A stretch of DNA of 64,000 bases from a bacterium (GTDB taxonomy: Bacteria; CLD3; SB21): NCBI GenBank assembly GCA_008933615.1, contig WBUR01000023.1:1-64000 (forward strand), given 5' to 3'. Position numbers and translations under genes: made by a program. The notes beneath the pieces were generated by a model. That model ran no database searches. It worked only from the letters and a program-made list of their open reading frames with translations, and had not been told where the DNA came from. Shown here piece by piece: positions 151-12,871 of this stretch (position 1 is its first letter; every line of letters begins with the position of its first letter).

Positions 151-732
151 ATGAGGCAGATAGATGGTGTTTATTTTTCACCGACGATAAGATTCGGTAG
201 TATAGATTTTGAAGAGAGATCGTCTCTTATTCCTGCGGTTCGAGATAGAATCTATGGATACTATTTAGACCCTGTAAAGGTCTTGATAGAACGGGAAATG
301 GGGTTTGCTGCGGGTGTTTTACTCATAAGTGCGATAGATGGGATAGCTGAAATGATGTTAAACGACTCGAAGAGTGCAGATCGTCTGATACCGTGGCTAA
401 GCAAATATGTCAACGAGTTCAGCCAAGCAGACACTGACAGGCCTGGGAGGAAATATGCCAATACTTTTAACGATTTTTTTCGACATAAGTTGATTCATAA
501 TTCTAGGATAGCAGAAGGTGGACAATTTTCGTTACTTATTGATGACATAATGACAATTAAGGACAAAACGATGATCGTGAATCCTTTTCTGTTATTAGCT
601 AAAACTTGCCAGATATTTGATTCCTTTTGTGAGGAGCTACGTAACACTTCAACCAAGAAGTTTGAACTTCTTTCTAAACGCTGTTTGAAGAATTTCAAAA
701 AGGAAATCGAATTGGACATGAGCTGGCAATGA
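151..732 (+). CDS. HEPN-like small protein A (hypothetical)
   Basis: A 193-residue soluble, probably all-helical protein with no signal peptide. Start ATG 151 follows AGAGG at 141-145. Residues 108-117 contain the motif FFRHKLIHN, i.e. R111-x4-H116 with a polar residue directly after the Arg; this is the catalytic signature of HEPN RNase/toxin domains. The downstream gene at 760 encodes a similarly arranged protein: a helical N-terminal half, an FFR-x-x-x-IH motif, then an (I/V)-x-NP block followed by a helix. The two look like diverged tandem duplicates. Known of the family: HEPN proteins act as RNases in toxin-antitoxin, abortive infection and CRISPR effectors. Assigning RNase activity here is inference, because the motif is short and the overall fold was not tested. 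The genomic setting (large NACHT-like ATPase downstream) favours a defence role. Confidence 0.6.
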   Translation: MRQIDGVYFSPTIRFGSIDFEERSSLIPAVRDRIYGYYLDPVKVLIEREMGFAAGVLLISAIDGIAEMMLNDSKSADRLIPWLSKYVNEFSQADTDRPGRKYANTFNDFFRHKLIHNSRIAEGGQFSLLIDDIMTIKDKTMIVNPFLLLAKTCQIFDSFCEELRNTSTKKFELLSKRCLKNFKKEIELDMSWQ

Positions 733-759
733 CTGTTGGCCGAAAGGAGCAAAGTAAAT

Positions 760-1392
760 ATGATAGTGCCCGATGAAACGATTTTTGGAGCCAATGATAT
801 AGGGGAAGGTATTACTTACGGTCAGGTAAGACGTATACTTGACGATAAGGAACGGATTCATTTTCTAAGATTGCGACTCAATACATTTTTCATTAATCAA
901 ACTCAGCCACTTCAAATATCAAAGTCAGCGTTTCCATTGACCCTAATGACCTGTGTGGGAATTGAAACGTTAGGTGAAATATTCATACAGGAGGACAAAC
1001 ACGATACGTCGTTTCAGTTTGTGGAAATAATCAAGAAAGTGCATCAAAAATTTGGGAGACCAATGTCTAAGGACTTTGATAAGAAATTAACTGAAATCTG
1101 GAAACAAAAAGACCTATCCAATATAGACTGCTACGGAAAAGTTCTGTATAGATTTTTTCGCAATACTATGATTCATGGCTATCAAGCAAAAGGTGTCTTC
1201 TTATCTTACGAGGATTTGAATGAAATCAATATTGACAAATCCAGCGGATTTATCATAATGAATCCCGATTGGTTTTGGAATCAATTTAAAATTGCCTACG
1301 ACAGTCTCTTTTTAGAAGTTGAAAATGCGCAGCCAAACAACCCGCTGAGGATAAATTGTCTGAAATATATTAGTGAATTTTTGTTGGAGTAA
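760..1392 (+). CDS. HEPN-like small protein B (hypothetical, paralogue of A)
   Basis: A 210-residue protein. I choose ATG 760 because AAAGGAG at 743-749 sits at correct spacing; the in-frame TTG at 736 lies upstream of that ribosome-binding site. It begins 27 bp after protein A stops. The motif FFRNTMIHG places R134-N135-x3-H139, matching the RNxxxH form of the HEPN active site more closely than protein A does. Around it are the same landmarks as in A: a helical stretch ending in a GIE-x-LGEIF segment, and an IMNP block after the motif. Two HEPN paralogues encoded side by side could form a heterodimer, since HEPN active sites are normally composite across a dimer (family knowledge; the heterodimer here is inference). 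No antitoxin-like DNA-binding gene is adjacent. Confidence 0.6.
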   Translation: MIVPDETIFGANDIGEGITYGQVRRILDDKERIHFLRLRLNTFFINQTQPLQISKSAFPLTLMTCVGIETLGEIFIQEDKHDTSFQFVEIIKKVHQKFGRPMSKDFDKKLTEIWKQKDLSNIDCYGKVLYRFFRNTMIHGYQAKGVFLSYEDLNEINIDKSSGFIIMNPDWFWNQFKIAYDSLFLEVENAQPNNPLRINCLKYISEFLLE

Positions 1393-1395
1393 GTC

Positions 1396-1830
1396 CAGTT
1401 CCAAAGAAACCCAAAGACTATTGTAACCCAAAGGACGCCTGAAGAAGGAACGGAGATTAGGTCAACAAAACTTCCGCAGGATATTGCGAAGATTTGCATG
1501 GAAAAATGGTTATTTAAAGAAATTGAGTTACTGAATCCGAAAGTGATTATTTCATTCGGAGAAGAATTGTACCAACTTCTCAAGGGTTATGTTGTTGAGC
1601 CGCTTCTGGCACCAGACAAACTTTCTGAGACAAAGGATAAGTCAAAGATCGACGCTGAACTTAAATGTGCAGAGGATGGCCCATTCAAGATAAAGTTAGG
1701 CTCCAATGTTATGGATTATTATCCATTACGGCATCCCGGCAGTTCAAAGAGTTTGTCGGCTTCTGACCAGAGGCAGAAAGCGTATCAGAAGTCGAGGGCG
1801 AGGGTGATTGATGAAATGAGGTACTTTTGA
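1396..1830 (+). pseudogene. uracil-DNA-glycosylase-superfamily remnant, N-terminally truncated
   Basis: An ATG at 1498 gives a 110-residue product that resembles the C-terminal half of family-4-type/UdgX-like uracil-DNA glycosylases: a helix ending in LNPKVIISFGEE, then a YPLRHPG segment like the family's conserved HPS/HPG motif near the C-terminus. The same frame is open upstream from the stop of the preceding gene at 1392 and reads a plausible family segment (KLPQDIAKIC, about 1468-1497), but no start codon and no room for the N-terminal catalytic motif or Fe-S cysteines exist. A neighbouring frame at 1395-1442 reads a second short plausible piece before a stop. I read this as a gene damaged by deletion and frameshift; an expressed 110-residue fragment from ATG 1498 cannot be excluded. 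Confidence 0.5.
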
Positions 1831-1891
1831 TTGACTGCGCATTCGTATGCCGAAAACCAAAATGTTTCCAAAATCTTCTAGGAGTAAAATC

Positions 1892-4800
1892 GTGAAGCAC
1901 ATTTATCCATGGAAACGACTCTTTTATAGAAGGGAAGATGATTTCAATTTAAGTGATGACGGGTTTCTTGCCGACCATGAATATTTTCAACCTTATGGCA
2001 CGACCTTCGACGAAATTGCTAAAGGACGGAATTGCCTCGTGGTGTTGGGAGAATCTGGAATTGGAAAAACATATGTGTTTGAAGAGGAGTTCTCAAAGCT
2101 GAAAAAGGAATCGAGTCTTCGATTTGATTTGGGGCAATACGGAGACGAGAGTCGATTCGTCAATGAAATATTCAACAATGAAACCATAAGATCTTGGCGA
2201 ACTAACAAAGAAGACTTGTACTTGTTCTTTGATAGCCTAGATGAAGCTCCAATGGGGGTTGAACGAATATCAAAGCTGTTAGAATCACAACTAAGAATCC
2301 TTTCGGCACACTTCAATCGATTGTATGTGAGGATAAGTTGTCGCCCGTCTGTTTGGCCGCACTTTCTGGAAACCAATTTGTCGAATATGTGGATACAATC
2401 TCAAACTGTATACAAATTAGCGCCACTGACGAAATCAAATATTAAGACGGCGGCTGATTTGTGCGGCTGTGATGCCGAGTTATTCTTGAAAGAAATTGAA
2501 GAGAAAGAACTTGCTCCATTCGCAATCAAGCCTCTTACCCTTAATTTAATGCTAAAACTCTTTCATAGGGATCATTTACTTCCTGCAAAGGCAAGACTAT
2601 TCTACGAAGGCTGCTTAGAACTTTGTACGGAACGGCAGGATCGATCACAAAGGCCTGTCCTCTCACCAGAACAAAAACTAAGAATTGCCGAAAGAATTGC
2701 ATGTTTAAGTTTATTCTGTAATAAGGCTATAATTTCAAAAGAGAGATCAATTATTGGAGGCGAGGTGATGGCCATTGCAGATTTGTCTGGAAGTACTGAG
2801 ACGGTGAAAGAGAATACACTTAATGTTACTGAGGCCGATATTATTGAGACGTTGAGTACAGGCTTATTCTCAACTCGTTCAGAGAATAGTATTTGCTGGG
2901 CTCATCGAGCGTATTCAGAATATCTTGCTGCTTCGTATCTGATTGAGTATAAACTGGAGACCAATCAAATTATAGGCTTAGTCTCACACTCGCTTGACCA
3001 GTCCATAAGAATTGTCCCGCAACTTTATGAAGTAGTGGCGTGGCTTGCCGGTTACGATAGTGGAGTATTTGATTGGATTCTCACGACAAAGCCCGACTTA
3101 TTGCTTGATTGTGATTCTGCTGCGATTCCTGAGGAAAAGAAAAAAGAACTTGTTGATCGGATCTTATTATTGCGGGAGTCGCAGAAAAAGTATCAATTCG
3201 AAAAAACCAGATACAAAAAGTTGGCTAACAAGTTCCTGACTGAGTCATTATCCAATTTCATAGATAACATTAATTGTAGTGATTCATCCAGATTGACCGC
3301 GCTTGACATTGCTGGTGAATGCTACGAACAGGGTATTCAGAAGAACGTATTGCAACTAGCACTAAATAAAGAAGAAGGCCACCATATACGGGTCAGTGCA
3401 CTGTACTGTCTGGCCAAAATTGCAAATAATGAAACAAGAGCGGCGCTTGCGACTCTGTTGGATGACGAAGACCCAACTGACTCCGATGATCAAATAAAAG
3501 GCTGTTTACTAAAGATCTTATGGCCAACTGTCATTTCGACGGAAAAACTATTTAACAAACTGACACCGCCAAAAATTCAATCGTTTCTTGGGTCGTATCA
3601 ATATTTTATGAACTACGAATTGCCATCAAAGCTAAGCAAAAAGGACATCGAAGTTGCACTAAACTGGTTAGGACGTCAATTACAACAGAAGGAATTGTCA
3701 ATGGATTTTCATTTTGAACGTCTAATTGATGAAATTGTTAAAGTGGCATGGAATAATTTAACCTCAGATACTGTAGATCCTCTAGTAGATGTTTTGGTTA
3801 CTGGGTGGCAGAACCATTACAGACTATTTCCTCAAGAACGAGATAGGAAGTTCTTTGCGGGTGATAGGACCAAACGTCAAATGTTCATCAAAGCACTGAT
3901 AGTCAGACAAGACTTCTCAAACGAGTTGCATATATTTCAAGCGGATATATTTTCATCTTATGAAGATTCAAGCTGGTTGTTACAACAGGCCATTGGAAAT
4001 GATGATCCAGACATGAAGAAGAAATGGATTAGTGCGCTAGTGGCTTTGGGAGCATGGGATAATGAGGTTTGGCGAAGTGCCGTATTAGACGCATGTGAAG
4101 TGATGCCCGAAATGAGAATTTTACATATATGGTATGTTGGTCCAGTAGATGTCAACTCTGAACTGGCGACATGTATGAGAGAATCTGAAAACAGGAGAAT
4201 GAAAATCACAAATCAGAAGGTACCTTTCCCGATACAAAGGGTCGAACGTGAATTGAAGTTGTTTGAACAAGGAGATATGGACGCGTGGTGGAGGTTAACA
4301 AATGAATTGTCAGTCAAGAATAATTTCTACGATCATGCTGCATGGGCTATTACAAAAATGCAAGGTTGGGCTGAAGCAGATAAACATTTGCGGTCAAGGC
4401 TTATTCTTGCGGCGAAAAAGTACGTTCTAAATGCTGACCCGCAAACAAACACTTGGATTGGGCAGGGCAAGTTCGTATTTCCAGCGCTAGGCGGTTACCG
4501 AGCCTTACAGTTACTGCATGATTATGATACTGAATTTATAGAAAATTTATCACGTGAAACATGGTCTAAATGGGCAGGAACGATACTGACATTTCCTATG
4601 TCGAGTGGAACTATAGAAGACGATAATGCGGCTCAGAGCCTTGTGCAAGTTGCCTATAAGAAGGCTCCCGAAGAAATGATAAAGTGCACTCTGCTCATCA
4701 TCGACTATGAAAACCAGAGACTCGATCATCTCTTTATTCTGAGAAGATTCATGCATTGTTGGGATGAATTTCTAACCAATGAGATGAGTAACAAGTTAAA

Positions 4801-5998
4801 ACAAAATGACCTTGCTCCTAACCCATTGGGTTGCTTGCTTGAGACACTTCTGCAATTCAACAATCAAGATGTGATAGAATATGCAAAAAGCTTGGTTCTA
4901 AAATACAAATCAGCCTTAGAAGAAGAAAAGACGAAGGCTATTGTTGCGGCATCGCTACTGGCAATCCATACAGAAAATGGTAGTTGGCAGTTTTTATGGC
5001 CCATTATAAATGAAAATAGTGAATTTGGTAAGCAGTGCATTCGGGCGATCGTTAATCGAAATGATCGGAGCGACTTCGGAGAGCGCCTTATTGCACCTGG
5101 CATGAGTGAAAGGGAGTTAGCTGACTTATACATTTGGCTAGTGAAGCAGTTTCCATACTCTGAAGATACGAATAGAGAGGGGAGTGGGTTTGTCACAGAT
5201 CGTGAACGTGTAGAAAGATTCAGAGATTCACTTCCAGAAAGGCTAAGGAAGAAAGGAACAAAAACGTCTATTTCTGAAATTAAACGAATAGTCAATGAGT
5301 TTCCAACGATGATTTGGTTAAACCGCATCTTGGTTGATGCAGAAGAACAAACAATACTGAAAAGCTGGAAACCACCAACCCCGGCTGAGGTGTTCGTTTT
5401 AGTACGAAATAATCGGAGCCGATTAATTCGCAGTGGCGATGATTTGATTAATGTTGTAATTGAATCGTTAAGCGGATTAGATAGCGACCTACAGGGTGAG
5501 CTACCGACTGTACGCTATTTGTGGAATGAGTGCGGTGGGAATATTTACAGACCAAAACCGGAAGCTGATCTATCGACGTTTGTCGCAATACATCTGAAAA
5601 GAGATTTGTTGGCACAAGGTGTTATCATCAATCGTGAAGTCGAAATTCGTCAAGGCGAAAAAACGGATATTCACATTGATCTTGTCAGCAAGGACAAACA
5701 GCACACGCACTTTCATTTAATTATCGAAGTAAAGGGATGTTGGAACAAAGAAGTTAAAAGCGCAATGAAAACGCAATTGGCAGACAGATATCTTCAGCAC
5801 AATCAATCTCCATATGGAATATACCTGGTAGGATGGTACGAGTGTCAGAAATGGGATGCTAATGATTATAAGAAAACAGCCACTCCGGATATGAGTCTCA
5901 AAGAAGCTCGACAGTATTTCGAAAATCAGGCCAAGGCCGTATCAATAGAGACAGGCCTAACTATCGGTTCTTTTGTACTGAACTGTGGGTTAAAGTAG
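1892..5998 (+). CDS. giant NACHT-like STAND NTPase with C-terminal PD-(D/E)xK nuclease motif
   Basis: About 1368 residues from GTG 1892, which has AGGAG at 1880-1884 with 7-nt spacing; ATG 1847 is in frame but has no visible ribosome-binding site. Numbering is from the GTG. Walker A is GESGIGKT (53-60) and Walker B is LYLFFDSLDE (109-118), the DxxDE form typical of NACHT. An Arg-containing ISCRPS strand follows, then AHRAYSEYLAASYL, the HRxxxEYxAA signature at the end of NACHT modules. Residues about 400-1240 are long, helical and repeat-like, probably HEAT/ARM-like sensor repeats. The C-terminus has D1263, then E1279-V-K1281 (IIEVKG), the core of a PD-(D/E)xK nuclease, followed by a Gln/Tyr-rich helix. 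Antiviral STAND proteins usually carry the nuclease at the N-terminus, so this order is unusual. Defence function is inference from architecture and the HEPN-like neighbours. Confidence 0.7.
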   Translation: MKHIYPWKRLFYRREDDFNLSDDGFLADHEYFQPYGTTFDEIAKGRNCLVVLGESGIGKTYVFEEEFSKLKKESSLRFDLGQYGDESRFVNEIFNNETIRSWRTNKEDLYLFFDSLDEAPMGVERISKLLESQLRILSAHFNRLYVRISCRPSVWPHFLETNLSNMWIQSQTVYKLAPLTKSNIKTAADLCGCDAELFLKEIEEKELAPFAIKPLTLNLMLKLFHRDHLLPAKARLFYEGCLELCTERQDRSQRPVLSPEQKLRIAERIACLSLFCNKAIISKERSIIGGEVMAIADLSGSTETVKENTLNVTEADIIETLSTGLFSTRSENSICWAHRAYSEYLAASYLIEYKLETNQIIGLVSHSLDQSIRIVPQLYEVVAWLAGYDSGVFDWILTTKPDLLLDCDSAAIPEEKKKELVDRILLLRESQKKYQFEKTRYKKLANKFLTESLSNFIDNINCSDSSRLTALDIAGECYEQGIQKNVLQLALNKEEGHHIRVSALYCLAKIANNETRAALATLLDDEDPTDSDDQIKGCLLKILWPTVISTEKLFNKLTPPKIQSFLGSYQYFMNYELPSKLSKKDIEVALNWLGRQLQQKELSMDFHFERLIDEIVKVAWNNLTSDTVDPLVDVLVTGWQNHYRLFPQERDRKFFAGDRTKRQMFIKALIVRQDFSNELHIFQADIFSSYEDSSWLLQQAIGNDDPDMKKKWISALVALGAWDNEVWRSAVLDACEVMPEMRILHIWYVGPVDVNSELATCMRESENRRMKITNQKVPFPIQRVERELKLFEQGDMDAWWRLTNELSVKNNFYDHAAWAITKMQGWAEADKHLRSRLILAAKKYVLNADPQTNTWIGQGKFVFPALGGYRALQLLHDYDTEFIENLSRETWSKWAGTILTFPMSSGTIEDDNAAQSLVQVAYKKAPEEMIKCTLLIIDYENQRLDHLFILRRFMHCWDEFLTNEMSNKLKQNDLAPNPLGCLLETLLQFNNQDVIEYAKSLVLKYKSALEEEKTKAIVAASLLAIHTENGSWQFLWPIINENSEFGKQCIRAIVNRNDRSDFGERLIAPGMSERELADLYIWLVKQFPYSEDTNREGSGFVTDRERVERFRDSLPERLRKKGTKTSISEIKRIVNEFPTMIWLNRILVDAEEQTILKSWKPPTPAEVFVLVRNNRSRLIRSGDDLINVVIESLSGLDSDLQGELPTVRYLWNECGGNIYRPKPEADLSTFVAIHLKRDLLAQGVIINREVEIRQGEKTDIHIDLVSKDKQHTHFHLIIEVKGCWNKEVKSAMKTQLADRYLQHNQSPYGIYLVGWYECQKWDANDYKKTATPDMSLKEARQYFENQAKAVSIETGLTIGSFVLNCGLK

Positions 5999-6360: not shown

Positions 6361-6525
6361 ATGCTAAGCATTGAATATTGCAAATCAATACTGAATAAGA
6401 GCGGAAAAGATTACACTGATGAAGAGACGGAGAGGATTAGACGGGTTCTTTATGTGATGGCAAACTTAGAGTATACGTTAAGGAAGAAGGAACTTTCAAT
6501 GACGTCAGAAAGAAAACCACAATAG
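6361..6525 (+). CDS. small conserved-type protein, 54 aa (hypothetical)
   Basis: ATG 6361 is preceded by a very strong ribosome-binding site, AGGAGGT at 6351-6357, and the frame runs to TAG 6523-6525. The sequence starts MLSIEYCKSILN, has a YTDEETERIRRVLY segment and then ANLEY, a pattern seen in short helical proteins of unknown function. The small protein at 12971 follows the same plan (start, REILSQ, then YSDEEIEAGLEFL), so the two are probable paralogues placed either side of the lexA-dnaE cassette. The function is unknown. The strength of the translation start is the best evidence that this is a real gene. Confidence 0.6.
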   Translation: MLSIEYCKSILNKSGKDYTDEETERIRRVLYVMANLEYTLRKKELSMTSERKPQ

Positions 6526-6587: not shown

Positions 6588-7292
6588 CTACAAACCCAAT
6601 TCCGAATAATCAAATTCCTCGATCAGATGTTCCGCGTTATTCCTGACATTATTGACGGCAGGATTGGCGTAATAATGTATGATCTGCTCTTCCGAAATAG
6701 GGTTCAGGAACGGAGTAATATCCTCGTATGTTTTTCGTTCCGGGTCGAGCCAGGGCCGTTCGTTAACGGCCTCAAGCATGACCGGCATGCGGTTGTGATA
6801 TTTGGCAACAGTCTTATTTGGCTGAGTGGTAAGTATCGTACATGACACAATGGGATTTTGTCCTTCTTTTTTCCACACATCATAAAGTCCCGCGAAAGAG
6901 AATACGGATTTATCCTTCATCATAAACCTTACCGGTCGTTTTTCTTTACCTACCTTCTCAAATTCATAAAAACTGTCCGCAACTATGAGGCATCTCCGTT
7001 TTGGGATCAGGTTCTTGTAAGACGCTTTCGTGTGTATTTCTTCGCTGCGGGCATTGATCGTACTGAAACCGAATTTTTTCGGATCGGGCGCCCATGATGG
7101 AACGAGGCCCCATTTCATCAGCTTCATTTTCAGTTTATCGTTCTCCTGAACGATCACCTGTACCATGTGGGTAGGGGCGACATTGTAGTTGGGCCGGAAA
7201 TTCTCAATGAGTTCTTTCATCTCTTCATTCGCCAGATCGAATTTTTCCTGGATGAGTCGCAAATTAGTCGTTTGAGTATAACGTCCGCACAT
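6588..7292 (-). CDS. SRAP/HMCES-like abasic-site processing protein (YedK family)
   Basis: A 234-residue SOS-response-associated peptidase (SRAP) family protein. It starts MCGRY, so removal of Met1 exposes Cys2, the residue that cross-links to abasic sites in single-stranded DNA in YedK/HMCES. Other expected active-site residues are present: N80 in INARSE, E110 in FYEF, and H166 in YHNRMP. The length matches the family (about 220-240). ATG 7292 has AGGAGG just upstream on the minus strand. It is transcribed divergently from lexA across a 140-bp gap that contains the palindromic operator, so co-regulation by LexA is likely but inferred. Role: shielding abasic lesions during replication, which fits the translesion polymerases next door. 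Confidence 0.93.
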   Translation of the reverse strand: MCGRYTQTTNLRLIQEKFDLANEEMKELIENFRPNYNVAPTHMVQVIVQENDKLKMKLMKWGLVPSWAPDPKKFGFSTINARSEEIHTKASYKNLIPKRRCLIVADSFYEFEKVGKEKRPVRFMMKDKSVFSFAGLYDVWKKEGQNPIVSCTILTTQPNKTVAKYHNRMPVMLEAVNERPWLDPERKTYEDITPFLNPISEEQIIHYYANPAVNNVRNNAEHLIEEFDYSELGL

Positions 7293-7363
7293 GAAACCTC
7301 CTTGTTTTTAAATAAGCTAATGTGAGGATGATGAAAAATCAATTCAAATTTTGATAAAAAAAC

Positions 7364-7392
7364 TTGACTACCATACATTTGTATGGTATATT
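7364..7392 (+). promoter_or_regulatory. lexA promoter
   Basis: A -35 hexamer TTGACT (7364-7369) and a -10 TATATT (7387-7392) are separated by exactly 17 bp, a close match to the sigma-70 consensus. The start of transcription would fall near 7399, about 35 nt before lexA ATG 7433. The entire spacer is occupied by the palindrome described separately, so a bound repressor would block RNA polymerase. Confidence 0.8.
7369..7388. promoter_or_regulatory. candidate LexA operator (SOS box)
   Basis: TACCATACA-TT-TGTATGGTA is a perfect 9-2-9 inverted repeat filling the spacer of the lexA promoter. LexA genes are autoregulated in most bacteria, and LexA operators are lineage-specific. This sequence differs from the E. 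coli (CTGT-N8-ACAG) and Bacillus (CGAAC-N4-GTTCG) boxes. No second copy was noticed elsewhere in the window, so its status as the LexA box rests on position and symmetry. Confidence 0.75.
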
Positions 7393-7432
7393 GTATTCGT
7401 CAAACCCGTAATCCAAAAGAGAGACGGTAAAA

Positions 7433-7999
7433 ATGGAGTATCTCACGAAAAAACAAGAGGGTATTTACAATTATATCCTCCAATGCCTGAGAACAAACGG
7501 ATTTCCGCCTACCATAAGGGAGATCGCCGATCATTTTTCAGTATCCATCGGTACTATTCAGGATCATATTTCCGCAATTGAAGGAAAAGGATATTTGAAA
7601 ATAAAACCGAACACAGCCAGGGGATTTGAGCCAATATCAAGGGGAATACCGGTGTATGGTAAGGTCGCAGCCGGGAAGCCGATCTTTGCGATTGAAAATA
7701 TCGAAGGTTACGTGCAGGACAGTTATAAAAAGGCCGAGGGTGTCTTTGCTGTGACCGTGACCGGAGACAGCATGATCGAGGCCGGGATCATAGAAGAAGA
7801 TGTTCTGATCGTGCATAAACAGGAAACTGCCGAAGATAAAGACATCGTGATCGCATTACTGGGCGACGAAGTGACTGTGAAACGATTTAGAAAAAAAAGG
7901 GGAAAAGTTCTTCTGGAAGCGGCCAATCCGAAATACGAACCTATCGATAGAGAATTTACCATCATTGGAAAAGTGATCGAATCACGCAGAAAATATTAA
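7433..7999 (+). CDS. lexA: LexA SOS repressor
   Basis: 188 residues. The N-terminal winged helix (about 1-65) reads FPPTIREIADHFSVSIGTIQ, a LexA-type DNA-reading region whose recognition helix diverges from E. coli, consistent with a non-standard operator. The self-cleavage site is A80-G81 (VAAGKP), the nucleophile is S113 in GDSM and the general-base lysine is K150 in VTVKRF, so the protein should respond to RecA filaments. The length is slightly shorter than E. coli LexA (202). It heads an apparent operon: a 10-bp gap to the 132-aa gene, which overlaps the Y-family polymerase start. Autoregulation through the palindrome at 7369-7388 is likely. Confidence 0.95.
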   Translation: MEYLTKKQEGIYNYILQCLRTNGFPPTIREIADHFSVSIGTIQDHISAIEGKGYLKIKPNTARGFEPISRGIPVYGKVAAGKPIFAIENIEGYVQDSYKKAEGVFAVTVTGDSMIEAGIIEEDVLIVHKQETAEDKDIVIALLGDEVTVKRFRKKRGKVLLEAANPKYEPIDREFTIIGKVIESRRKY

Positions 8000-8009
8000 A
8001 GGAAGTGGA

Positions 8010-8408
8010 ATGGATAAATCGAATTTTACGGTGACCGAGGAAGAGTTGATCTCCGGGAATCTTAACAACATATTATCGGCCTATAATGTGTATCAATTTT
8101 TCACGGATCGTATTGGCGTAGAAATATCCTTTCAAAATGGAAAAGTGGTCAATTCGCAATTGAATTTCTACCGGGCCAACTCATCCAGTCTGGGTAATAT
8201 CAATTGTGTGATGCCGCCGCTGAGTTCGTCAGATAGAGAAAAAATAAAGCAGAACACCTTCGGGATATTAAGAACACTGAATATGCAGACGCCGAATGAC
8301 ATTTTCGGGAACTTAGAAATCGTGTTTGAATTTGAACCGGAAAAAAAAATGAGGATCAAGAATGTATTTATCAAAATTCAAAGTATTTTTAAAAACCAGA
8401 TGAACTAA
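8010..8408 (+). CDS. unknown 132-aa protein in the lexA-polymerase operon
   Basis: I do not recognise this family. It lies 10 bp after lexA and its TAA shares one base with the ATG of the polymerase (TAATG), so it should be co-transcribed and translationally coupled. It occupies the place taken by imuA/sulA-type genes in other mutagenesis cassettes, yet it has no P-loop and no RecA-like motif. It has no signal peptide or membrane segment. The C-terminal third (VFEFEPEKKMRIKNVFIKI) alternates charged and hydrophobic residues like beta strands and is rich in lysine. A role as an accessory factor of the translesion polymerases is a guess from location only. Confidence 0.75.
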   Translation: MDKSNFTVTEEELISGNLNNILSAYNVYQFFTDRIGVEISFQNGKVVNSQLNFYRANSSSLGNINCVMPPLSSSDREKIKQNTFGILRTLNMQTPNDIFGNLEIVFEFEPEKKMRIKNVFIKIQSIFKNQMN

Positions 8409-9562
8409 TGCCTGTCACCAGAATCGTACATATCGACCTTACGGCCTTTTTTGTATCGGTTGAAAGGCTGCTCAATCCAAGTTTGATCGGTAAACCTATC
8501 ATGGTGGCCGGTCCGGCTGAAAGCCGCGGAGTTGTTACATGCGCATCGTATGAAGTGAGGAAATACGGCGTTCGAGCAGGAATGCCGACAGGTACGGCCG
8601 AGCGTAAATGTCCTATTGCGATACGAATTGACGGTCATTTTTCAGCATACCAGGAGTTTTCCAAAAAGGTTCAGTCGTTCGTCAGATACTACGCTCCGCG
8701 ATTTGAAGCGGCAAGCATCGATGAATTTTACCTGGACTGGACGGGTTGTGAAAGGATATTCGGCGGTGATCTTTATAAATTCGCCTTACGAATGCAGAAG
8801 ACTATCCTGGCCAAGTTTGGATTGCCCTGTTCCATCGGCATAGCCTCCAATAAAATGACAGCAAAAGTAGCTTGCGATCAAGCCAAACCGGATGGCGTTC
8901 TGGAAGTGGTTCCTGGTAAAGAGGCTCAGTTCCTTGAGCCTTTAAGCGTCGGTGTACTGAGCGGCGTCGGAGAGGTCATGCTGGAAAGGCTCAATTCCAG
9001 AGGCATACGAACCTGCGGACAATTTGCTAAACTCGATTCTGAATACATCGGTAAGACCTTTGGCAAATCGGGATTGACAGTCCAATCTTATGCAAAAGGT
9101 TATGGTGAACAGTATTTGGTATCAGCCAGAGAACAAAAACAGATTTCCAGAGAAGAGACATTCGCAACCGATACACGGGACTCGGCATTTTTATCCAACA
9201 TGATGCATGACATGTCGCTGGAAATCTCAGAAGAACTACGCTCCCTGGATCTCAGGGCTCAATGCGTGAAGCTCAAGCTTCGCTATTCTGATTGGGTAGA
9301 TCATTCGAGACAGATCACTGTAGAACCGACCAACGATCCTATCTCGATCTACAAAACAGCTTTGTCCTTATTCCACAAAGCAGATGATCGGCGTGTCACC
9401 ATACGATTAATAGGCGTCGGTATCACTAAATTCACACAAGACCGATTTACCATTGATCTTTTGAGGCAGAACGAAGAGCGCAGAGAATGGCTTCTCAAAG
9501 CCGTAGACATTATTAATCATAAATACGGAAATAGCGCTGTGAGAGTAGGGTCTGTAGCATAA
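8408..9562 (+). CDS. dinB: Y-family DNA polymerase (Pol IV / DinB type)
   Basis: 384 residues, close to archaeal/bacterial DinB length. The three catalytic carboxylates are intact: D10 in HIDLTAFF, and D105-E106 in ASIDEFYLD. The palm, fingers and thumb (GIGxVxxxxLxxxGI-like region about 190-215) are followed by a little-finger domain ending near residue 375. The final residues (SAVRVGSVA) do not form an obvious beta-clamp-binding motif, unlike E. coli Pol IV. It performs error-prone or translesion synthesis opposite damaged bases. Start ATG 8408 overlaps the previous stop. It follows lexA and the 132-aa gene; the hairpin terminator at 9591 separates it from the DnaE-type gene. Confidence 0.92.
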   Translation: MPVTRIVHIDLTAFFVSVERLLNPSLIGKPIMVAGPAESRGVVTCASYEVRKYGVRAGMPTGTAERKCPIAIRIDGHFSAYQEFSKKVQSFVRYYAPRFEAASIDEFYLDWTGCERIFGGDLYKFALRMQKTILAKFGLPCSIGIASNKMTAKVACDQAKPDGVLEVVPGKEAQFLEPLSVGVLSGVGEVMLERLNSRGIRTCGQFAKLDSEYIGKTFGKSGLTVQSYAKGYGEQYLVSAREQKQISREETFATDTRDSAFLSNMMHDMSLEISEELRSLDLRAQCVKLKLRYSDWVDHSRQITVEPTNDPISIYKTALSLFHKADDRRVTIRLIGVGITKFTQDRFTIDLLRQNEERREWLLKAVDIINHKYGNSAVRVGSVA

Positions 9563-9590
9563 ATAATTGATTGAGTCGTTGGGAGCACCA

Positions 9591-9637
9591 AACTCGATTT
9601 CTGCAGAAGGAATTCTGCGGGAATCGAGTTTTTTATT
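9591..9637 (+). terminator. intrinsic terminator / attenuator between dinB and dnaE-type gene
   Basis: A long stem pairs 9591-9608 (starts AACTCGATT) with 9613-9630 (ends AATCGAGTT) around a short GGAA loop, with two G-U wobbles and one mismatch, followed by TTTTTTATTT. It has the form of a Rho-independent terminator. It ends just before the ribosome-binding site of the downstream polymerase, so it may reduce polymerase expression relative to dinB. Confidence 0.8.
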
Positions 9638-9649
9638 TGAGGAGTATGC

Positions 9650-12600
9650 TTGTTCACTCATTTACATGTTCATTCCTACTACACCTACGGTAAAGGTAGT
9701 TCAAGTATCGAAAGCCTTGTTGTCAGGGCCAAAGAGTGCGGATACGATACGTTGGCCATTACCGATCTTAATACAATGGCCGGAACGGTAGAGTTTTACC
9801 ATATGTGCAGGGAATATGGTCTATTTTCTATTATCGGCTGTGAGATTGACGATCCCAAAGATTCAGATTTGAAGGCCGTTCTACTTTGCAGAAATGGTAC
9901 CGGTTACCGTCGCCTTTGTGAATTAGTATCGGCGAGGCAGATTGAAACCGGTTTCGACTTGGCGGAAGCGTTGAGGCAAAATGCCGAAGGATTGTTCGTA
10001 CTGTCCTATTCCGCAGGTCTATTGCAGGCTCTTAAGGGTTATGTAATCGATCTCTACGGCGAATTGGTATTGCTGCCGTCTTTGAAGAAGCGGAATCGTT
10101 TGATATTCGAATGGTGTCAGAAGAACAAGATCCCGCTTGTGATCACCAATGACGTATATTTTGATGAGCCTGCTAAACACGAAACCTATCGCATTCTGGC
10201 TTCGATCAAACAACTCACGACGGTTTATGATCTGCAAGACGAAGTTACAGACGAACAATATTTGAAGTCCCCCGAAGAAATGAAAAAGGGTGCCGCATCA
10301 ATGAAGGAGTCATTGGCCAATGTACAGAAAATAGTGAAAGCGTGTCAGTTTGAATTTGAATTAAAGAAATATCATTGTGCCCGGTACCGGACCATGGACG
10401 GTAAGGTCATAGATTCAAGCCCGGAGATGTTGCGCCAATTGGCTCATGACGGCTTGATAAGGCGCTACGCCATTACGGATAAAAGTAAGCCGTTCAACTA
10501 TGACGTACTGATCCAGCGATTGAATTACGAATTGGAAGTCATATCCAACCTTAATTTCTGCGATTACTTTCTCATCTGCTGGGATATGGTCACGTACGCG
10601 CACAGTCAGGGCTACTGGCATGTAGGGAGGGGTTCTGCCGCTAATAGCCTTGTCAGTTACTGTCTTGGGCTTACGGAGGTGGACCCGATCCGTTATAATC
10701 TCTATTTTGAGCGATTCCTGAATTATTCACGAGGCAAACCGCCTGACATCGACCTTGATTTCAATTGGCGGTTCAGAGACAGAATGCTGGAATACATTTA
10801 CCGGCGCTATGGGCAGGAACGCGTAGCCATGATGTCGTCCATTCACACGATGCACGCAAGAGGAGCCTTGCGTGAAGTGGCTAAGGCATACGGTATAAGC
10901 GAACGGGAGCTGGATACTTTCAGGAAATACATTCCGCACACATTGGCCAGAAACCTTGAGGTTCTGAGCACAAAATATCCCGAAGCAAAAAATTTGAAAC
11001 TGAATAGTGATTTGTATCAAAAGATCCTGAAGACCGCAGCGCAGTTAGACGGGTTCCCGCATTACAGCGGGATTCACTCCAGCGGCGTGGTGATCACCGA
11101 GAAACCTATCACGCATAACAGCGCCCTTGAACGCAGCGCTAACGGATTTATCAAAACTCAGGTTGATATGTATTCCGGTGAGGACGTCGGCCTCATTAAA
11201 TTCGATGTTTTGGCCGTTAGGGGGCTGGGCACCATCGAAGATGCTGTGCGGAATATTGAGGCAGAAAAAGGCCAGGCCATAGATATTTTCAACTGGGGGA
11301 AGATATTCGCGGATGAGAAGGCCAAAGAACTCATGAGCACCGGCAAAACGATTGGAGTAGTTCATGCCGAAAGCCCGTTCATCCGAAATGCCATGCGTAT
11401 CACGAAAGCGGAGACATTTGAATTGTTGTATATCATTTTGGGTATGGTGCGAACGGGCTGTGTGGAATCGGGTATGATGTATACGTTCATCGAGCGTTTA
11501 CTTGATCCGCAAAAGAGAAAGGAAGCGTTACCTGCTTTGATGGAGATCCTGCCGGAAACATTCGGGGTAATGATATTTGAAGAAGATGTGATCAAGGTCT
11601 TGCACTTTGTTGGGAGCTTGACTCTGGAGGAATCGGATATGGTGCGCCGTTATATGAGCGGCAAAAGGGTCAGCGCGAAGGTCATACAGGAATTGAAAGC
11701 TAAGTTCTTCCGAAATTGCATGAAGAAAATAGACGGTATCAAAGAGATCGAAACGTTGTGGAAACAGATTGAAAGTTTCAGCGGGTTTTCGTTTTGCAAA
11801 GCGCACAGCGCAAGTTATGCGCTGATGGCGTTTCAGGGACTGTATCTCAAAATTCATTATCCGGCGCATTACATGGCGGCGGTATTGTCCAACGAAGGCG
11901 GGTTCTATTCCGCTTCCGCTTATATTTCCGAATGCAGACGCTTGGGACTAACGATACTGCCGCCCGATATTAATCTCAGCGATAGGGAATACAAAGCAGA
12001 CGGGAATGCTATACGGGTCGGTCTGCGATTCATAGCAGGTATCGGTTCCGAATCATTGAACCTTCTCATGGAAGCGCGAAGTGAAAGGTCTTACGATTCA
12101 TTACCGGATTTTGTATTGAGATCGGGCGTTGGCCATGAAGAAATAGTTACTCTGATCAAGATCGGCTGTTTCGATGCATTCAATAAGAAACGCACCTTAT
12201 TGATCGCTCTGCTCGACGCGATCATTCACATACAGAAAAGCAGGCTGTCGCAAGAGATGTTCAGTCTTGATCTGACCCATTACGAACAGATGCTATCGCA
12301 TTTGGACGATATGACCGCCCACGAAAAACTCGCTTCTGAAAACGACCTTTTGAGCTATTTTGTAGCGCAGCATCCGCTTGAATTTTTCCCAAAACAGATC
12401 AATAGTCCGTCCGTTGTTAAAGCAAAGGACCTGTCGCGTTACAAAAATAGGAAAGTCAAAATGATCGGTTGGCTGGTTTCGGCCAAACGTATACGGACAC
12501 GAGATAAGAAGGACGAGGAGGGGAATATCCGGGAAGGACAATACATGAAGTTCATGACCCTTGAAGACCTTACAGGTATTTACGATACGGTGCTTTTTCC

Positions 12601-12871
12601 GAAGGTTTATGCTCAGGTGGCCGAGCAGACGTTGTCTTATGGCCCGTTTTGCGTCGAGGGTATCGTTGACGAACGTTATAACACGGTTAATGTTACTCGT
12701 ATTGCTCTCGTTCGAAATAAATTACCTCAGATGGATATAGACGCTTCATTGACCATCGAAAAGCAGGAAGTGTATGCAAAGCAGAAATCAGACAGCGATA
12801 CATATAGCGACGGATATATTGTTCCGATTGAAATGGAAACAATCGAGCTTCAAATCATAAAAGCCTCGTGA
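9650..12871 (+). CDS. DnaE-type DNA polymerase III alpha subunit (error-prone, DnaE2/ImuC-like)
   Basis: 1073 residues, the usual size of error-prone DnaE2-type enzymes. An in-frame stop at 9638-9640 forces the start to TTG 9650, which has GGAG at 9641-9644; an out-of-frame ATG at 9646 overlaps it. Catalytic residues are D366 and D368 in PDIDLDF and D519 in IKFDVL, so polymerase activity is expected. The N-terminal PHP domain looks degenerate: it reads HLHVHSYYTYGKG and ITDLNTMAG, where active PHP domains have an acidic residue and His (TDH). An OB-fold (about 930-1010) lies near the C-terminus. With LexA and DinB it forms a damage-inducible mutasome cassette. Separate replicative dnaE is expected elsewhere in the genome. 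Confidence 0.9.
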   Translation: MFTHLHVHSYYTYGKGSSSIESLVVRAKECGYDTLAITDLNTMAGTVEFYHMCREYGLFSIIGCEIDDPKDSDLKAVLLCRNGTGYRRLCELVSARQIETGFDLAEALRQNAEGLFVLSYSAGLLQALKGYVIDLYGELVLLPSLKKRNRLIFEWCQKNKIPLVITNDVYFDEPAKHETYRILASIKQLTTVYDLQDEVTDEQYLKSPEEMKKGAASMKESLANVQKIVKACQFEFELKKYHCARYRTMDGKVIDSSPEMLRQLAHDGLIRRYAITDKSKPFNYDVLIQRLNYELEVISNLNFCDYFLICWDMVTYAHSQGYWHVGRGSAANSLVSYCLGLTEVDPIRYNLYFERFLNYSRGKPPDIDLDFNWRFRDRMLEYIYRRYGQERVAMMSSIHTMHARGALREVAKAYGISERELDTFRKYIPHTLARNLEVLSTKYPEAKNLKLNSDLYQKILKTAAQLDGFPHYSGIHSSGVVITEKPITHNSALERSANGFIKTQVDMYSGEDVGLIKFDVLAVRGLGTIEDAVRNIEAEKGQAIDIFNWGKIFADEKAKELMSTGKTIGVVHAESPFIRNAMRITKAETFELLYIILGMVRTGCVESGMMYTFIERLLDPQKRKEALPALMEILPETFGVMIFEEDVIKVLHFVGSLTLEESDMVRRYMSGKRVSAKVIQELKAKFFRNCMKKIDGIKEIETLWKQIESFSGFSFCKAHSASYALMAFQGLYLKIHYPAHYMAAVLSNEGGFYSASAYISECRRLGLTILPPDINLSDREYKADGNAIRVGLRFIAGIGSESLNLLMEARSERSYDSLPDFVLRSGVGHEEIVTLIKIGCFDAFNKKRTLLIALLDAIIHIQKSRLSQEMFSLDLTHYEQMLSHLDDMTAHEKLASENDLLSYFVAQHPLEFFPKQINSPSVVKAKDLSRYKNRKVKMIGWLVSAKRIRTRDKKDEEGNIREGQYMKFMTLEDLTGIYDTVLFPKVYAQVAEQTLSYGPFCVEGIVDERYNTVNVTRIALVRNKLPQMDIDASLTIEKQEVYAKQKSDSDTYSDGYIVPIEMETIELQIIKAS

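Follow-up and report, generated by a model that had tools for sequence, protein, structure and literature searches.

A probable stand-alone NACHT immune gene, related to EruA and HyoA, beside a separate pair of Rx4H genes

Introduction

Two small genes that share an Rx4H motif stand 5′ of a gene for a giant NTPase at the beginning of the 64,000-nucleotide stretch of bacterial DNA analysed here (the window), and the question that they raise is whether the three genes form one defence system. A sequence-only reading had proposed that they do, as a multi-gene immune system of two HEPN-like paralogues plus a NACHT nuclease. The present analysis points, with a probability of about 0.82, to a stand-alone single-gene NACHT immune protein that lies beside a separate Rx4H operon.

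Gene organization at the contig end

ORF calling gave three real ORFs, all on the forward strand, at 151–732, 736/760–1392 and 1847–5998, the same genes as listed earlier, and the third encodes a protein of 1383 aa rather than the ~1368 aa claimed. The first gene (HEPN1, 151–732) encodes a predicted mostly helical protein of 193 aa with R111-x4-H116 in FFRHKLIH, a putative HEPN-like RNase or toxin subunit. The second gene (HEPN2, 760–1392) follows at a spacing of 27 bp, and its product, 210 aa from ATG 760 or 218 aa from TTG 736, carries FFRNTMIH. Because the SD sequence AAGGAG precedes ATG 760, this is most likely the HEPN2 start in preference to TTG 736. The motif RNTMIH is R134/H139 when counted from ATG 760, as it was in the sequence-only reading, hence its numbering, and R142/H147 when counted from TTG 736. 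Judged by spacing, HEPN1 and HEPN2 are a separate operon.

The Rx4H motif in its FFR-x3-IH context was confirmed in both proteins. A bare Rx4H occurred in 13–17% of shuffles of the HEPN1 and HEPN2 sequences and R[NDH]x3H in about 2% for each protein; the context common to both is more than chance, and it is no proof of a HEPN fold. The small proteins had been called paralogues outright, whereas BLASTP (E 0.046 over 83 aa) and a shuffle z of about 3 suggest this weakly.

HEPN2 and the NTPase gene are 454 bp apart, and within this distance lies a feature absent from the earlier account, the 3′ remnant of a uracil-DNA glycosylase (UDG) superfamily gene (1393–1830, forward strand; PF03167, E 0.001; Thermus UDG 1ui0, E 7e-5). 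The remnant begins right after the HEPN2 stop codon with its frame open, about 90 N-terminal residues are missing, and its 27–63 aligns with 93–128 of the 1ui0 chain. At the 5′ side, base 1 of the window is the contig end, so any operon partner upstream of HEPN1 is cut off, and the true partner of the small pair may be lost beyond it. The tail of an open frame at 3–107 ends 43 bp before HEPN1, and its remaining 35 residues matched no Pfam family.

The large protein resembles EruA and HyoA

The large gene (1847–5998, forward strand) encodes, in order, a short N-terminal segment, a NACHT NTPase, a long helical repeat region and a C-terminal PD-(D/E)xK nuclease. The Walker A motif GESGIGKT occupies residues 68–75 (2048–2071) and the Walker B-like LYLFFDSLDE residues 124–133, while the C-terminal effector module extends from about residue 1187 (5405–5998) and contains the PD-(D/E)xK residues D1274, E1294, K1296 and Q1310. 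Conservation was read from a 5-sequence and then an 18-sequence alignment. The Walker residues G68, G71, G73, K74, D129, D132 and E133 were identical in 18/18 sequences, and the stretches G68–K74 and D129–E133 as well as the active-site set of four were conserved in 17–18 of the 18 homologues; D1274 and E1294 were found in 18/18 and K1296 in 17/18, with one CHAT-bearing row included whose identities there are chance only. The protein thus has the Walker A and acidic Walker B of NACHT/STAND proteins and, at the level of sequence, the conserved D...ExK active site of PD-(D/E)xK nucleases, in agreement with what had been noticed before. Its Pfam NACHT match reached only E 0.09, and PADLOC-DB 2023 did not recognise it.

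NCBIfam models matched the protein as EruA (NF058535, NACHT domain-containing antiphage protein; E 2e-73) and HyoA (NF058534; E 6e-58). Like EruA, it is one large NACHT protein, and its residues 56–1332 correspond to model positions 19–1273 of 1318, the C-terminal region included; however, it scored 248 bits where the curated cut-off is 1000. It is therefore not an equivalog, and any assignment of function from EruA has to bridge a wide gap. For HyoA the NACHT and repeat core was matched, whereas the best stretch comprised residues 187–573 only and stayed below the 1200-bit cut-off. By these profile matches the large protein is a distant member of the EruA/HyoA-like NACHT antiphage superfamily, a known, recently named kind of single-gene anti-phage protein in which an NLR-type switch bears a DNA-cutting tail, and the homology together with active-site conservation supports an anti-phage role. 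Of the immune function proposed earlier, this part, which concerns the NTPase, is supported, and the part that concerns the three-gene set is not. Homologues at roughly 22–35% identity were observed in Cyanobacteria, Bacteroidota, Acidobacteriota, Pseudomonadota, Gemmatimonadota, Synergistota, Actinomycetota, Thermodesulfobacteriota and others, and also on plasmids and IMG/VR contigs.

Relatives of the small Rx4H proteins

HEPN1 had no family match of note in Pfam, PADLOC or NCBIfam, and HEPN2 weakly matched PADLOC HEC-02B (E 0.004) with the Rx4H motif outside the matched part. Structure models, proposed earlier as a check on the HEPN claim, were obtained by AF2 at pLDDT 38.5 for HEPN1 (single sequence) and at pLDDT 44.6 and pTM 0.41 for HEPN2 (two-row alignment; low confidence), and Foldseek with the HEPN2 model returned no match at E <= 0.001 and nothing below E 1.9. 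A HEPN family or structure match was found for neither small protein. Relatives of HEPN1 and HEPN2 were not found on 72,556 plasmids up to E 10 or on viral contigs, and none were detectable among 386 genomes at the thresholds used; the profile matches to the pair in the 386 genomes were rejected as chance, the best one being a TetR regulator.

An extra query, a consensus of a widespread Rx4H family that served as a lead only, retrieved proteins from Arcobacter, Synechocystis and Rhizobium. The Arcobacter plasmid protein, which carries RCGLVH, aligns with both small proteins of the window (shuffle z 4.8 and 6.4; pairwise E 3e-4 against HEPN1), and the invariant positions of a 5-sequence Rx4H alignment were R111, H116 and L174 (HEPN1 numbering), plus Met 1. 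HEPN RNases are reportedly an Rx4-6H superfamily, and this motif is present as RHKLIH in HEPN1 and RNTMIH in HEPN2. With HEPN RNases the pair shares the R-polar-x3-H motif and short, predicted-helical proteins, but differs in having no HEPN family match. The small proteins would fit a loose HEPN-like Rx4H family, by which the fold is not established, and an RNase function is plausible. The Arcobacter plasmid stretch (L046:3605–9467) encodes HEPN/Toprim-associated, Rx4H, SMEK and DUF2326 proteins and looks like a small defence island.

Occurrence of the small genes beside NTPase homologues

When all ORFs at 25 related loci were scanned by phmmer with HEPN1, HEPN2 and the UDG remnant as queries, only the window itself was recovered, even at E 10. 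Since such small proteins diverge fast, the search was repeated using a five-member Rx4H profile with all HMMER filters off, and a match was found at none of the 22 NTPase loci, drawn from many phyla, whose upstream DNA could be read (to a depth of about 0.9 to 10 kb); the few upstream R-x4-H motifs (L015, L019) sit in ORFs without profile similarity. NTPase homologues in other phyla stand alone, with no HEPN1-, HEPN2- or UDG-like neighbour in the 25 loci, and in G008, a member of the same class, the NTPase occurs and the small pair is missing. A recurrent system of two HEPN genes plus the NTPase was rejected on these counts, and the co-occurrence that the sequence-only reading had looked to was not found beyond the window. 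Because the small pair appear to be unrelated neighbours, the locus is probably not a new three-gene defence system; the false "new multi-gene system" is removed and the large gene is assigned to its proper family.

A three-gene system confined to this lineage, with a HEPN heterodimeric RNase controlled by the NACHT nuclease or added to it as a second effector, would agree with the shared strand and order of genes 454 bp apart and with the sparse sampling of the phylum (9 genomes), but it is very unlikely, as the 22 homologous loci are devoid of such genes, the NTPase is already equipped with an effector and occurs by itself in other genomes, the remnant of a gene intervenes between the pair and the NTPase, and the G008 NTPase goes without the pair. 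That the EruA-like NACHT nuclease recruited the adjoining HEPN-like genes to cleave RNA as its second effector, so that a single locus would attack DNA as well as RNA, would be a longer shot still. The preferred reading, a stand-alone NACHT protein beside a separate operon, is itself opposed by the common direction of all window genes, which makes co-transcription possible, and by the HEPN-pair relatives being too few for a proper test of the pair's own neighbourhood.

Alternatives for the small pair alone have also to be weighed. The chances are about even that it makes up a full toxin-antitoxin or RNase module by itself or else closes a longer defence operon, of which the gene before it (end at base 107) was lost at the contig edge; this reading covers nothing but the small pair and does not conflict with the stand-alone NACHT protein. 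The 27-bp spacing and SD between HEPN1 and HEPN2, the open frame that stops 43 bp 5′ of HEPN1, and the position of the loosely similar Arcobacter protein near a HEPN/Toprim-associated and a SMEK protein argue for it, whereas the upstream gene is unreadable and its 35 leftover residues are without a Pfam match. It is rather unlikely that neither small protein is a HEPN domain and that Rx4H is incidental; although the lack of HEPN family and structure matches and the low-confidence models would favour this, the FFR-x3-IH context is identical in both proteins, the R and H are the sole invariants of the 5-sequence alignment besides one Leu and Met 1, and the prediction is mostly helical.

Exchange of the C-terminal effector

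A profile of the nuclease-bearing proteins matched the homologues of Scytonema (L015:10001–14179), Nostoc (L022:9992–12872) and Sulfuricurvum (L023:9998–14307) only to window residues 1186, 1190 and 1187, respectively. In the former two a C-terminal CHAT domain replaces the PD-(D/E)xK nuclease (PF12770, E 1e-7 and 3e-11; PADLOC chat, E 3e-18 in Scytonema) and retains two motifs, HF-S/C-GHG and LNAC. Of these CHAT cases the one of Scytonema is intact, whereas the Nostoc NTPase gene is split by a break. The Sulfuricurvum homologue is without a C-terminal effector, and the gene 3′ of it overlaps its end and encodes a product with several hydrophobic segments; this membrane-protein gene is a possible effector in trans.

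In a core-only tree, a quick one with long branches elsewhere, the CHAT forms fell within the nuclease clade, with SH-aLRT values of 97–100 for the enclosing forks. Being exchanged for CHAT inside the nuclease clade, the C-terminal module behaves as an effector, and the comparison points to a modular, swappable unit whose boundary with the sensor lies at residue 1186–1190. Published bNACHT proteins carry the effector at the N-terminus and the sensor at the C-terminus (PMC12169576); the EruA-like layout, with a C-terminal exchangeable effector that is a nuclease, CHAT protease-like or possibly a membrane protein in trans, is the reverse. The exchangeable effector is the part worth following in a locus otherwise ordinary in kind, and the natural CHAT/nuclease chimeras offer a way to find out which signal the common core responds to.

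Proposed mode of action

Like bNACHT25 and bNACHT32 (clade 6; PMC12169576), the window protein would combine a NACHT switch with a PD-(D/E)xK DNase, although those two proteins have the nuclease at the N-terminus and the sensor at the C-terminus and the window protein has its nuclease at the C-terminus. Upon infection the PD-(D/E)xK domain of bNACHT25 degrades DNA; defence needs this domain, and mutation of the active site abolishes defence (PMC12169576). By analogy with bNACHT25, we infer phage sensing, oligomerisation and DNA cleavage for the NACHT protein. In this scheme the NTPase and the helical repeats would detect either a phage product or some disturbance of the host, and this infection signal would release the NACHT switch. 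ATP-driven oligomerisation would come next, and the C-terminal PD-(D/E)xK module would then be switched on and cleave DNA, so that either the phage or the cell is stopped. The two Rx4H proteins may act as ribonucleases of a HEPN-like kind or in the manner of a toxin and its antitoxin. Their operon has its own translation signals and a partner that possibly lies past the contig end, and it would be near the NACHT gene only because mobile or defence regions commonly gather genes in this way.

Neighbouring genes

Downstream of the NTPase gene, the window contains SRAP, LexA, a small gene, an ImuB-like Y-family polymerase and a DnaE-type polymerase (6588–12871), an SOS mutagenesis cassette. The cassette is conserved in G002 of the same genus and is located there at another site, next to thiL/recN-like genes, so no clean empty insertion site is definable. 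Between the NTPase and SRAP genes, an unlisted ORF of 54 codons (6361–6525) has a strong SD (GAGGAGGT) and starts MLSIEYCKSILNKSGKDYTDEETERIRRVLYVMA... In the locus of a Gemmatimonadetes homologue (L024:1166–9281), umuDC-like genes upstream and a SRAP-like gene downstream were read from the sequence, as in the window.
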